A DNA stretch of 64,000 nt from NCBI GenBank assembly GCA_903939115.1, contig CAJAFV010000086.1:1-64000 (forward strand). The letters are read 5' to 3'. Each line of letters starts with the position of its first letter. Position 1 is the stretch's first letter. Made by a program: the position numbers and the translations under genes. Shown here one piece after another: positions 13,839 through 19,014 of this stretch. Source of the stretch: an uncultured Geobacteraceae bacterium. GTDB taxonomy: Bacteria; Desulfobacterota; Desulfuromonadia; Geobacterales; Pseudopelobacteraceae. Below the pieces are notes generated by a model. The model was not told the origin of the DNA. It made no database searches and saw nothing but the letters and a program-made list of their open reading frames with translations.

Positions 13839-15128
13839 TCAAAATCGTTGTTGATACTCCGCGACCAACTCCCGTAATTTTTTCTTCATGCCCCTTTTCC
13901 ACGGCCCTACCGCCACCAGGCGTAGATTGTCGGGGGCAAAAAGCGCCCGGGCGGTGTCCTGAAGCTCGGCGGCAGTGATCCGGCGTGCCTCTGCCTGATC
14001 CTCTTCAATACTTCTGACCACACCCATCAGTTCGCCCCAGCCATAACGCCCACCCATTTCGTACGCAGAATCGCGGCTGAATTCAAGGTCGAAAATATAG
14101 GAATTGCGAATACGCTCCAGTTCTTCATCCGGCACCGCGGTTGTCGCAACGAGAAGCAGCTCTTTAAACGTTGCCTCTACCGCATGGATCAAGGTGTTTG
14201 GAGCTGTCGAGAGATCAAATGCGAGGCAACCGGTTTCATCGTACGCCCCGATGGCGCCATCGACGGAATAAATAATTCCCAACTCCTCACGCAGATGCAG
14301 GTGCAGGCGTGAACTGCCGCCACCGGCAAGGATTCTCCGTAAAAAGCGGAGCGCCATAAAGCGTCGGTCATCGCGCGCGAAGCCGAGGAATGCGAGCTGC
14401 AGATTCATCTGGCTGTCAGAGTCCTGCACGCAGCGGACCTGCGGCGCAAATTGGCGGAGTGTTACGAGCGGCGCCGGCGGAACAGTCGTGTCAGCCCACT
14501 CCCCGAAACAGTCCGTAGCAGCGTCCAGGACCGCACTGCATGTAACCGGGCCGGATACGACCAGAACCGCATTTGAAGGGACATAATGCTTCTTCAGATG
14601 TTCTTCCAAGTCAGACCGCCCGATAGCGGCAATGCTGTCAAGAGTGCCGATTGTCGGCATCCCGAGCGGGTGGCGGGGCCAGAGCATACGACTGACAATG
14701 GTGTCAGGATTGACCTCCTCCCCCTGTTCGTTAAGATCCTCCCGCGCTTCCTCGGCAATAATCCGCTTTTCAATCTCGATGCCGGAGAGGAGCGGCTTCA
14801 TCAGCATTGACGCGAGTATTTCCATGCCACGTTTGACACTATCAGGATGTACCCGTGAATAATAATAGGTCGATTCGGCGTCTGTCGCGGCGTTCGGTGC
14901 CCCCCCGATGACTTCAAAGGCCGACTCGATAGCCAGCGAAGAAGGGAATTGAGCGGTACCGCGAAACAGAATGTGCTCCAGAAAATGCGAAAGGCCTTCC
15001 CGTCCGGGCGGGTCATTGCGTCCCCCAACCTTGAGGTAAATTGCCAGTTCGGCAGAGTGAAGGTGCGGCATTTCGACACAGACAACCCGCAGGCCGTTGG
15101 TAAGTGTATGTAGGTGGGAACGGATCAT
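13839..15128 (-). CDS. M16 family zinc peptidase
   Basis: HFLEHILFRGT (HxxEH) and downstream E; typical length. Confidence 0.93.
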   Translation of the reverse strand: MIRSHLHTLTNGLRVVCVEMPHLHSAELAIYLKVGGRNDPPGREGLSHFLEHILFRGTAQFPSSLAIESAFEVIGGAPNAATDAESTYYYSRVHPDSVKRGMEILASMLMKPLLSGIEIEKRIIAEEAREDLNEQGEEVNPDTIVSRMLWPRHPLGMPTIGTLDSIAAIGRSDLEEHLKKHYVPSNAVLVVSGPVTCSAVLDAATDCFGEWADTTVPPAPLVTLRQFAPQVRCVQDSDSQMNLQLAFLGFARDDRRFMALRFLRRILAGGGSSRLHLHLREELGIIYSVDGAIGAYDETGCLAFDLSTAPNTLIHAVEATFKELLLVATTAVPDEELERIRNSYIFDLEFSRDSAYEMGGRYGWGELMGVVRSIEEDQAEARRITAAELQDTARALFAPDNLRLVAVGPWKRGMKKKLRELVAEYQQRF

Positions 15129-15547
15129 GATAAAGCTCTCCGGATAGATTCAATGCGTTGGTGCTGCTCATCTGGCGTAAGAAGCCGCTCCTCATGCTGC
15201 TCCGCCCAGATCGGCCGTGGCCAGAGATATTCTGTCGAGAAGCGCGGTACGATGTGCCAGTGGATATGCGGCACCATATTTCCCAGCAGTTCATAATTGA
15301 TCTTGGCAGGTTTGTATATGCCATACAGCGCCTCAGCCACGGAAGAAACCTCTTCCATCAGAGTGGAGCGAACATCGCGATCAAGATGGAACAGTTCCGT
15401 GACGTGAGCTTTGGTAAAGAGCAGCGTATAGCCGGGAAAATACTGGTCACGGTTCAGCGTTACATAGGAGTATGGCAGTTCAATGATCTGCAGATCCTTT
15501 TCTTTTTCCCAGCGTGAACACATCGGGCAGTCGGTCATATTATTCAT
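15125..15547 (-). CDS. HIT family protein
   Basis: HIHWHIVPR histidine triad-like motif. Confidence 0.88.
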   Translation of the reverse strand: MNNMTDCPMCSRWEKEKDLQIIELPYSYVTLNRDQYFPGYTLLFTKAHVTELFHLDRDVRSTLMEEVSSVAEALYGIYKPAKINYELLGNMVPHIHWHIVPRFSTEYLWPRPIWAEQHEERLLTPDEQHQRIESIRRALS

Positions 15548-16766
15548 ACCTCAGCGCGTCAATTGGATTGAGACCGGCCGCTTTTTTGGCAGGGTAAAAA
15601 CCGAAAAAGATACCGACTGCACCGGAAAAGACAAAGGCGATGGCGATGGATTGGAACGAAATCATGGTTGGCCAGTCAAGCATGCGCGACACGGCCGTGG
15701 CTCCTCCGGCCCCCAGAGCAATACCGATCAGGCCCCCCAGCATGGTAAGCAGCACCGCTTCGGTCATGAACTGCAGCAGGATATCATTCTTTTTGGCGCC
15801 GATCGCCATCCGGATGCCGATTTCACGGGTTCGTTCCGTAACGGAAACCAGCATGATGTTCATAATGCCGATACCCCCTACGATCAAAGAAATTGAAGCG
15901 ACAGCTCCAAGCAGCAGCGACATGGCCTTTGATGATTTTTCCGCGACCGCCAGAATCTCTGACAGGTTGCGGGTCGAAAAGTCAGGTTCCTTAACGTTAC
16001 TGATCCGATGGCGCTGGGTAAGAAGCGCCTGAATTTCGCTTTCAGCCTTGTCAATCTGCTCCTCACTCTTTGCCTTTACGATAATTGCACTGACAATTCC
16101 TGTTCGCTGCGACCGGACCAGATTGCGTTGTGCGGTCCGCAGCGGCACAAAAACGGCATCATCCTGATCCTGCCCCTGAGGTGATTGACCTTTGCGGTCG
16201 AGGATGCCGATAACAGTAAAAGGGATTTTTTTGATCCTGATAATATTCCCGACCGGATCTGCAGACCCAAACAGGTTTTCGGCGACTGTCTGACCGAGCA
16301 GGCACACTTTGACAGCACCGTTCTCATCCTCCTGACTGATAGGGCGACCGCTGACAACCGGCCACTCGCGGATCTCAAACAGCTCCGGCGTCCCCCCCAT
16401 GACCACTGACGACCAGTTCATATTGCCGCTGACGATCTGCCCCGATGTCCTCACAGTGCCAGCTGCGTATGCCACGGAAGGGCACTCGGTCATGATGGCC
16501 TTGGAATCGTCACTGGAAAGTGTCTGGGCTCCGCCGGAGCCGGTACGCAAGCCGCCGCTGGTCGTCGATCCGGGCACAACCAGAATAATATTGCTGCCGA
16601 TACTGGCGATCTGCTGGGAGATGACATAGCTGGCCCCGGTTCCAACCGCCATCATGGCGATAACGGCGGCAATACCGATAATGATGCCGAGCATAGTCAA
16701 AAAAGAGCGCATCTTGTTGGTGCGCAGCGCCCGGAGGGCTATTTTGAGAGTTTGAAGAAAGTCCAC
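15540..16766 (-). CDS. MacB-type ABC transporter permease
   Basis: KIALRALRTNKMRSFLTMLGIIIGIAAVI; C-terminal FtsX-like domain VTERTREIGIRMAIGAKK. Confidence 0.92.
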   Translation of the reverse strand: MDFLQTLKIALRALRTNKMRSFLTMLGIIIGIAAVIAMMAVGTGASYVISQQIASIGSNIILVVPGSTTSGGLRTGSGGAQTLSSDDSKAIMTECPSVAYAAGTVRTSGQIVSGNMNWSSVVMGGTPELFEIREWPVVSGRPISQEDENGAVKVCLLGQTVAENLFGSADPVGNIIRIKKIPFTVIGILDRKGQSPQGQDQDDAVFVPLRTAQRNLVRSQRTGIVSAIIVKAKSEEQIDKAESEIQALLTQRHRISNVKEPDFSTRNLSEILAVAEKSSKAMSLLLGAVASISLIVGGIGIMNIMLVSVTERTREIGIRMAIGAKKNDILLQFMTEAVLLTMLGGLIGIALGAGGATAVSRMLDWPTMISFQSIAIAFVFSGAVGIFFGFYPAKKAAGLNPIDALRYE

Positions 16767-16769
16767 GCG

Positions 16770-17465
<696 letters not shown>

Positions 17466-18728
17466 TTAGAAACGCGGCCCCATCGGCGAAGCGCTTGCTC
17501 CGGCCTTTTTCTTTGTATCGCCACCAACCTGCTCGATAATGACCTCATTTCCTTCCTTGAGGCTGCTCTCTACCAATTCAATGCTGCTGTTGTTGGCTAT
17601 GCCGGTTTTTACCGGCGTCGCTACCGGCTTGCCATCAGTAAGCAGATATACCTGCAGAGTGCGTTCCTTTGACTTGGCGGAGCCACCCTTACCGACTCCT
17701 CCAGGCGCCCCGCCCATGGGGCGCTGACCGGAGGCCGCGGTGCGCTCGCCACTGCTCTTCTCTTTTGGTTCGTCACCTTTTGATTTCGGCTTGAAGCGCA
17801 AAGCTGCCGGTGGCAGTTTGAGGACGTCATCCTTTTTAGCAACTTCAACAGATACGTTGGCCGTCATGCCTGGCTTCAGCTTCATGTCGCTATTATCAAC
17901 GCTTACGACAACAACATAGGTGACCACATTCTGAGTAATGATCGGTGCACTACGAATCTGGATTACTTTACCGCGAAAAGTCTGCTCCGGATAGGAATCG
18001 ACGGTGAAACTGGCTTTCTGCTCGAGCTGAATACGACTGATATCTGCCTCATCAACACTAACCTCGATCTGCATTTTGGTCAGATCCTGGGCAATGGTGA
18101 AGAGCGTTGGCGTGGAAAACGAGGCGGCAACCGTCTGGCCGACATCAATTGCGCGGGATATGACCACGCCGTCCACCGGTGAGCGGATAACAGAGTAACG
18201 GAGATTTGTCTGTGCCTGCATGAGAGAACCACGCGTCTGGGCAAGAACACCTTCAGCTCCCTTAACAGCGGCTTTAGCAGAGTGCAGCGTGGTCTCGGCT
18301 GTATCGAAATCTCCCTGAGAGATTATCCCGTCAGCCAGCATCTGTTTTGAACGCTTGAAGGTGCGCTCCGCATCGATAAGGGCAATTTTGGCTTTCTGGA
18401 GGTTGGCCTCCGCACTGAAATGATTCCCCTGCGACTGTTCCACTGCAGCATTAAACAGAGACGGGTCAATTTCGGCGATCGGTTGCCCTTTTTTGACCCG
18501 CGAGTTGAAATCGACATAGAGCTTCTGGATCGTGCCAGACACCTGGGTACCGACCTGGACAGTTATAACCGCCGAAAGATTGCCGGTGGCTGCAACATTC
18601 GAGATAATCGTGCCGCGCTCTACTTTCGCTGTCTTGTAGCTGATCTCGGGCGTTTGTTTATAGTAGAAGTAGCCGGCAATGCTGCTTACTGCAAGGATGA
18701 TGGCCAGAATAATGAGGTATTTTTTCAT
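17466..18728 (-). CDS. Efflux periplasmic adaptor (MacA/HlyD-like)
   Basis: N-terminal anchor, QVSGTIQKLYVDFNSRVKKGQPIAEID biotinyl-lipoyl-like motif. Confidence 0.92.
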   Translation of the reverse strand: MKKYLIILAIILAVSSIAGYFYYKQTPEISYKTAKVERGTIISNVAATGNLSAVITVQVGTQVSGTIQKLYVDFNSRVKKGQPIAEIDPSLFNAAVEQSQGNHFSAEANLQKAKIALIDAERTFKRSKQMLADGIISQGDFDTAETTLHSAKAAVKGAEGVLAQTRGSLMQAQTNLRYSVIRSPVDGVVISRAIDVGQTVAASFSTPTLFTIAQDLTKMQIEVSVDEADISRIQLEQKASFTVDSYPEQTFRGKVIQIRSAPIITQNVVTYVVVVSVDNSDMKLKPGMTANVSVEVAKKDDVLKLPPAALRFKPKSKGDEPKEKSSGERTAASGQRPMGGAPGGVGKGGSAKSKERTLQVYLLTDGKPVATPVKTGIANNSSIELVESSLKEGNEVIIEQVGGDTKKKAGASASPMGPRF

Positions 18729-18781: not shown

Positions 18782-18808
18782 GCAGATAACAGCCGGCACA
18801 AACAAAAA

Positions 18809-18838
18809 AAATCCCCCTGTCTGACGACAGAGGGATTT
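18809..18838 (-). terminator. Rho-independent terminator after the 20-aa peptide ORF
   Basis: Minus strand AAATCCCTCTGTCGTCAGACAGGGGGATTTTTTTT: GC-rich stem followed by an 8-T run. Confidence 0.85.
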
Positions 18839-18872
18839 ATCTTCTGAACGCCCGCGACCGGTCGGTGGCGGG

Positions 18873-18935
18873 CTAACTAGGGCAACCCTCTTTGCAGTGA
18901 GAAACCGGGCGAATCTTAAATCTTGCAGTCCACAT
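18873..18935 (-). CDS. 20-aa peptide MWTARFKIRPVSHCKEGCPS
   Basis: Hand translation; AAAGGAG SD 9 nt before ATG, promoter upstream, terminator downstream; not in supplied ORF list. Confidence 0.65.
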   Translation of the reverse strand: MWTARFKIRPVSHCKEGCPS

Positions 18936-18986
18936 TGGCAGGGTCTCCTTTCGACGTATTATTTAATTCCTAACAGGATGGTTTTT

Positions 18987-19014
18987 ATCTTAATACTATT
19001 TCAAAACTTGTCAA
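18987..19014 (-). promoter_or_regulatory. Sigma70-like promoter for the 20-aa peptide gene
   Basis: Minus strand TTGACA (19009-19014), 16-nt spacer, TAAGAT (18987-18992). Confidence 0.6.

Follow-up and report, generated by a model that had tools for sequence, protein, structure and literature searches.

Does the short open reading frame upstream of an efflux operon in this Geobacteraceae contig belong to a gene of its own and, if so, how might its product act? The initial annotation of the window (the whole stretch of 64,000 nucleotides that was analysed) described a self-contained gene at positions 18809-19014 for a cysteine-containing peptide of 20 residues without a named family. We find that this gene almost certainly belongs to a real family of micropeptide genes, unannotated and very strongly conserved. 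The family also goes well beyond what was first thought, being order-wide, spread through the phylum and also present in Patescibacteria.

Layout of the unit and its neighbours

Every part named in the initial annotation, namely the promoter, Shine-Dalgarno sequence, ORF and terminator, was found to be correctly placed on the minus strand, and these parts form, together with a hairpin, a complete monocistronic unit (Table 1). The covarying second hairpin (18873-18850) and the fixed distance at which the RNA structure follows codon 18 had been missed. The first base of this hairpin is the last base of the TAG stop codon, and the terminator in the window starts about 35 nt past the end of the ORF. 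Folding of the region from 18980 to 18800 gave a z of -3.36. The promoter is one of two 10/12 matches in the 3 kb scanned, where seven promoter-like sites were found against 2.8 +/- 1.6 expected; by itself, the match in the window is only modestly above chance. A TTGAC(A/T)-type -35 and a TA-rich -10 were observed by eye before nearly all Geobacterales-type copies and the three Moranbacteria copies, and the Shine-Dalgarno sequence is strong in all members. In Geobacterales the parts are arranged as in a short monocistronic mRNA, about 180 nt long. Just 3' of the -10, a TCCTGTTAGGA motif (18978-18968, minus strand) is kept within the genus and may serve as an operator or form a 5' hairpin.

Table 1. 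Positions of the annotated features in the window
Feature	Positions	Strand	Remarks
Sigma70-type promoter TTGACA-16-TAAGAT	18987..19014	-	TTGACA 19014-19009, TAAGAT 18992-18987
Shine-Dalgarno AAAGGAG	18945..18951	-	Kept as GAAAGGAG, up to GAAAGGAGGTG elsewhere
ORF, 20 codons, peptide MWTARFKIRPVSHCKEGCPS	18873..18935	-	ATG 18935, stop TAG 18873
Codon 18 (Cys; six relatives have His)	18882..18884	-	Reference point, fixed distance to RNA structure
8-nt spacer, codon 18 to RNA structure	18874..18881	-	Spacing counts across relatives
Hairpin GCCCGCCACC-GACC-GGTCGCGGGC directly 3' of ORF	18850..18873	-	Folding and covariation
Intrinsic terminator, 13-pair stem (18838-18809) and run of 8 T	18799..18838	-	
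MacA-like periplasmic adaptor, neighbour outside the unit	17466..18728	-	

The efflux operon in the window consists of a MacA-like gene, a MacB-like ATPase and a MacB-like permease, gene assignments in the window being made by sequence reading and clustering only. The position upstream of an efflux operon, as first described, holds in the window but for only part of the family: a MacA-like gene lies downstream of 64 of the 103 distinct Geobacterales-type elements and of none of the distant ones, and the link to the efflux operon that this position implied goes no further than a partly conserved neighbourhood. The next downstream gene is co-directional at 33 of the 52 distant loci and at 14 of the 19 loci of the Geobacterales or Moranbacteria type, it lies on the opposite strand at the others (19/52 and 5/19 respectively), and its identity is variable. 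A TGCTATGAT stretch, read by eye between the terminator and macA, looks like an extended -10 of macA, i.e. a promoter element of macA's own. Because the unit has its own promoter and terminator and the next gene is variable, we regard it as autonomous, with the efflux operon as a frequent neighbour and not a fixed target.

Two further neighbourhoods were observed. Within 13839-17465 of the window (minus strand), the MacAB-type genes are succeeded by a HIT-domain-like gene at 15125-15547 and, at 13839-15128, an M16-peptidase-like gene; this pair directly follows the peptide gene in L112 and recurs in L095, so that the neighbourhood is partly conserved. A cluster that recurs in distant Desulfobacterota (L119, L124-L126, L137, L231, L234, L246, L247 and L252) comprises a rubrerythrin, a geranylgeranyl-reductase-like flavoprotein, a PDZ and/or LTXXQ metal-resistance protein and the micropeptide, then a hemerythrin or GRDB selenoprotein-type gene.

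Conservation of the peptide, and metal-related genes near some members

A single copy of the gene is present in its own genome, and the identical peptide was found in 13 genomes of the genus. In protein-against-genome searches, matches were found in 69 of the 76 family genomes and in 135 of the 143 order genomes (94%), representing all 30 genera and often with two copies; the named relatives with matches include Geobacter sp., Geomonas, Geotalea, Oryzomonas, Pelotalea and Trichlorobacter. Outside the order, a 20-row profile (E < 1e-4, 398 genomes of the phylum) identified about 50 further genomes from many families. Patescibacteria also hold members, which show high amino-acid identity despite the tiny genomes. 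Three Moranbacteria genomes (~1 Mb) carry MWTARFRIRPVSHCKEGC at one shared place, before an S4/pseudouridine-synthase gene; contamination of these bins was ruled out, as the three small genomes share flanking pseudouridine synthase and glycosyltransferase genes. As judged by sequence comparison, the conservation of the peptide across genomes is far beyond chance.

The statement that the peptide belongs to no named family agrees with all library searches. Three members were compared with Pfam and none matched a family at E<=10, the NCBIfam, PHROG and PDB libraries gave no match to the peptide, and Rfam gave nothing on the element (window at the gathering cut-off; 18 loci at E<=1). A literature search for the peptide strings found no paper containing any of them. 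A phage or plasmid origin was rejected because the one query run against plasmid records and the one run against phage records had no match, and neither did viral contigs give any. The free-standing micropeptide gene belongs to an undescribed family, with peptides of 18-24 residues; a gene of about 20 codons is present in 94% of the order genomes searched, yet it is without a match in the annotation libraries searched.

Conservation of the reading frame in relatives and selection at the codon level had been proposed as checks at the outset, and the gene passed both. Codons 2–18 of 76 distinct Geobacterales-type ORFs gave a pS of 0.56, a pN of 0.08 and a pN/pS of 0.147, and the same DNA read one or two bases later gave 3.9 and 2.0. 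The 55 distinct ORFs of other lineages gave 0.308 in frame against 1.6 and 1.3 in the other frames. The low ratio occurs in the ORF frame only and therefore selection acts on the peptide, which points to a translated ORF.

The peptides have the core motif [KR][FYW]x[ILV][RP][PR][VI][AST]HCxxG[C/H]. Seven residues (R9, P10, V11, C14, K15, G17 and C18) are invariant in the Geobacterales type. C14 is invariant in every lineage and position 18 is C18 or H18 in most others, with six members having His at this position (HCGEGH, HCDEGH, HCGDGH); four weak members (L229, L230, L256 and L258) are without the second ligand. This pattern, in which C14 never changes and C18 is mostly kept or exchanged for His, supports the earlier proposal that the cysteines are probably functional. 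The N-terminal half of the peptide is basic and conserved, the residues past position 18 are free to vary and the stop can occur anywhere from codon 16 to codon 40. In L257 (HCSCCSEGGC) and L258 (HCSYCSEGG) there is an insertion inside the ligand motif, which suggests an extra ligand or a site variant.

The initial annotation had also suggested metal binding, for which there is indirect support in that the C18-to-H18 exchange and the copper-gene neighbours of the H18 variants are consistent with a metal ligand at this position. Five of the six H18 variants lie beside DUF5676, YHS/TRASH, CopA or DsbD/thioredoxin genes, with two CopA-type ATPases carrying HMA segments among these neighbours. L245 lies ahead of DUF5676, YHS and a CopA-type ATPase that has two HMA-like segments, L255 has a TRASH-like gene on one side and an HMA/YHS P-type ATPase on the other, L253 lies ahead of DUF5676, and DsbD and thioredoxin genes are found beside L254 and L262. 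The sixth, L251, has no metal gene in its vicinity. Neighbours in the distant lineages include LTXXQ/Metal_resist periplasmic proteins, which several members follow, as well as hemerythrin, rubrerythrin, GRDB selenoprotein-type, CopZ, HMA, COX2-like, DsbD and thioredoxin genes, with L237 flanked by genes for a CopZ zinc domain and for an HMA protein. No metal genes were found near the members in roughly ten of some 17 families. A precursor of the GeoRSP radical-SAM type was rejected, as the model was below the cut-off in the genome and there is no conserved maturase nearby.

RNA structure and its distance from codon 18

A GC-rich hairpin follows the ORF in Geobacterales, with two-sided changes in six of its ten pairs and a covariation score that was reached by none of 500 shuffles. 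Its loops vary freely. In most other lineages the hairpin is replaced by NGUC-C-YGGGCA-N-GACN-(N)UAAAC-UGCCCR, which is a probable H-type pseudoknot whose covariation score was likewise reached by 0/500 shuffles. Stem 2 of this structure shows clear covariation, with pair 27–45 changed from GC to AU in ten sequences. Stem 1 consists of three invariant or nearly invariant GUC/GAC pairs and one variable outer pair, the latter changed on both sides in 13 and unpaired in 17 of 40 sequences. The pseudoknot loop NGACNNUAAAC is conserved across phyla, and the element is present, loop included, in the Patescibacteria genome L227. The Moranbacteria members L180, L193 and L194 have the ORF hairpin, then a short UGGCGAAAGUCCA-like hairpin (with a GNRA loop in L180) and then the terminator.

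The hairpin starts exactly 8 nt past codon 18 in 77 of 102 elements, with the remainder at 2-7 nt, and the same exact spacing was found in 60 of 71 elements once redundancy was removed. The pseudoknot starts 5-8 nt past codon 18 in 41 of the 54 other elements. Almost everywhere, the start of the structure lies 7–8 nt past codon 18, independent of the position of the stop. This distance has been kept while the sequence of the structure, the type of structure and the stop have changed, and it is the main clue to the mechanism. A mere lack of indels can also produce a constant spacing.

Candidate modes of action and known systems

The reading that we tentatively prefer is one in which the nascent peptide and the downstream structure pause the ribosome on a metal or thiol signal in a free-standing translation unit. 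It builds on the selection on the peptide, on the structure and its fixed position and on the monocistronic layout in Geobacterales. The ribosome would be slowed or arrested while codon 17 or 18 is decoded, because at that moment the RNA structure would have reached the mRNA entry and the conserved RPVSHCKEG would lie in the part of the exit tunnel that adjoins the catalytic centre. The peptide's H-C-x-x-G-[C/H] end may sense or carry a soft metal, e.g. Cu(I)/Zn(II), or a thiol signal, and the output could be the pausing, the release or the finished peptide. Since the gene stands alone, action in trans would be likelier than control of the next gene. The pausing, the metal response and any target are inferred, and the complete version, i.e. 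a stand-alone metal- or thiol-responsive pausing device with a tunnel peptide of 17-18 residues and a structure 8 nt ahead that acts in trans in two phyla, is a doubtful proposition. If the spacing does mark a ribosome pause, the unit would be an arrest-type leader without a downstream gene, a layout that is not described in the literature found.

Three other translational events were considered and rejected. These are a -1 frameshift, as no slippery heptamer was recognised by eye at codons 17-18, selenocysteine insertion, as there is no conserved UGA, and a macrolide-type +X+ stalling motif (RFK/KIR), which was set aside since other lineages have RFM or RYM at these positions.

A close rival to the pausing device is a free metal-binding micropeptide, possible though somewhat unlikely, in which the finished peptide of 18-24 residues would serve in soluble form as a chaperone or buffer for Cu/Zn/Fe or as a regulator subunit, with the structure only protecting or punctuating the mRNA. 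The ligand exchange in H13-C14-x-x-G17-C/H18, the copper and metal-resistance neighbours of several members, the conserved basic N-terminal half and the Shine-Dalgarno sequence that is strong everywhere all favour such a product, which however leaves unexplained why the distance of the structure is fixed to codon 18 and not to the stop, and why the stop and the residues past 18 move freely. If this reading is correct, few conserved gene products that bind metal would be as small as this peptide, and culturable strains of Geobacter, Geomonas or Trichlorobacter would allow an immediate test.

A dual-function sRNA of about 180 nt, acting in trans and encoding a peptide as in SgrS/SgrT or rnTrpL/peTrpL and possibly tuning the neighbouring efflux genes, is quite unlikely. 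It would account for the unit's own promoter and intrinsic terminator and for the pseudoknot loop kept across phyla; the MacA-like gene adjoining 64/103 Geobacterales-type elements and the action of peTrpL on an efflux operon (PMC7298713) point the same way. However, Geobacterales have no conserved pairing seed beyond the Shine-Dalgarno sequence, the ORF and the stem, and their loops vary freely.

Slightly less likely again is a leader peptide or attenuator that would act in cis on the efflux operon or on whichever gene comes next. The order of ORF, hairpin and terminator is attenuator-like, a MacA-like gene is downstream in most of the gene's own family, and the H18 variants with copper-type genes have such a gene downstream and co-directional. 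Against these observations, the next gene is on the opposite strand at 19 of the 52 distant and 5 of the 19 Geobacterales/Moranbacteria-type loci, its identity is not conserved and macA appears to own the extended -10 seen by eye. Given its own promoter and terminator, and since no neighbour is shared between the lineages, the unit is more than a leader of the efflux operon.

That the locus is not a gene but a conserved structured RNA or regulatory DNA with an incidental ORF is highly improbable, for although nucleotide conservation is high with the flanks included and the folding is strong (z = -3.36), the excess of synonymous changes is confined to the ORF frame, the exchanges are of the K/R, E/D, S/T and C/H kind, the Shine-Dalgarno sequence is kept at the right distance and Rfam has no match.

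CutF and CruR are precedents for peptides that sense copper while nascent, but each of them regulates a gene next to it, and the micropeptide differs from both in features that define them. CutF, from cutFOG of Rhodobacter capsulatus, is a small protein with a CxxxC copper motif, a proposed nascent-chain control and a downstream mRNA stem-loop (PMC9973294). The micropeptide has in common with it the CxxxC spacing (C14-x3-C18 in most members, with His at 18 in six) and a downstream RNA structure. CutF carries a Sec signal peptide and a C-terminal proline-rich stall-like motif, its mature form is about 90 residues long, and it controls the next gene, cutO, whose Shine-Dalgarno sequence is shielded by the stem-loop (PMC9973294), whereas the micropeptide of 18-24 residues has neither signal peptide nor proline-rich C-terminus and its gene stands alone. 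In the CruR (DUF2946) uORF of Bordetella, a Cys pair is proposed to sense copper during translation; CruR heads copper operons, has CXXC and RAPP about 45 residues apart and acts through Rho (PMC9426467). Unlike CruR, the micropeptide shows no DUF2946 match in Pfam (three members, E<=10), carries HCxxG[C/H] and not CXXC, has no RAPP and is not found at the head of a copper operon, its contexts being variable with copper genes near some members only.

The peTrpL/rnTrpL system of Sinorhizobium, which derives from the trp attenuator, provides a very short peptide that acts in trans in ribonucleoprotein complexes (PMC7298713). The small size of the peptide and the connection to an efflux operon are parallels, but the micropeptide gene has neither tandem Trp codons nor a biosynthetic operon. 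From attenuator leader peptides it differs in having no fixed co-directional target gene downstream. It is also unlike recoding signals in having no slippery heptamer (by eye), no conserved stop and no ORF that could be reached before the terminator. What it shares with them is a structure, often an H-type pseudoknot, a few nucleotides past a fixed codon, and the 8-nt spacer is within the 3-14 nt given for the spacer between shift site and stimulator in a review of recoding (PMC5009743).
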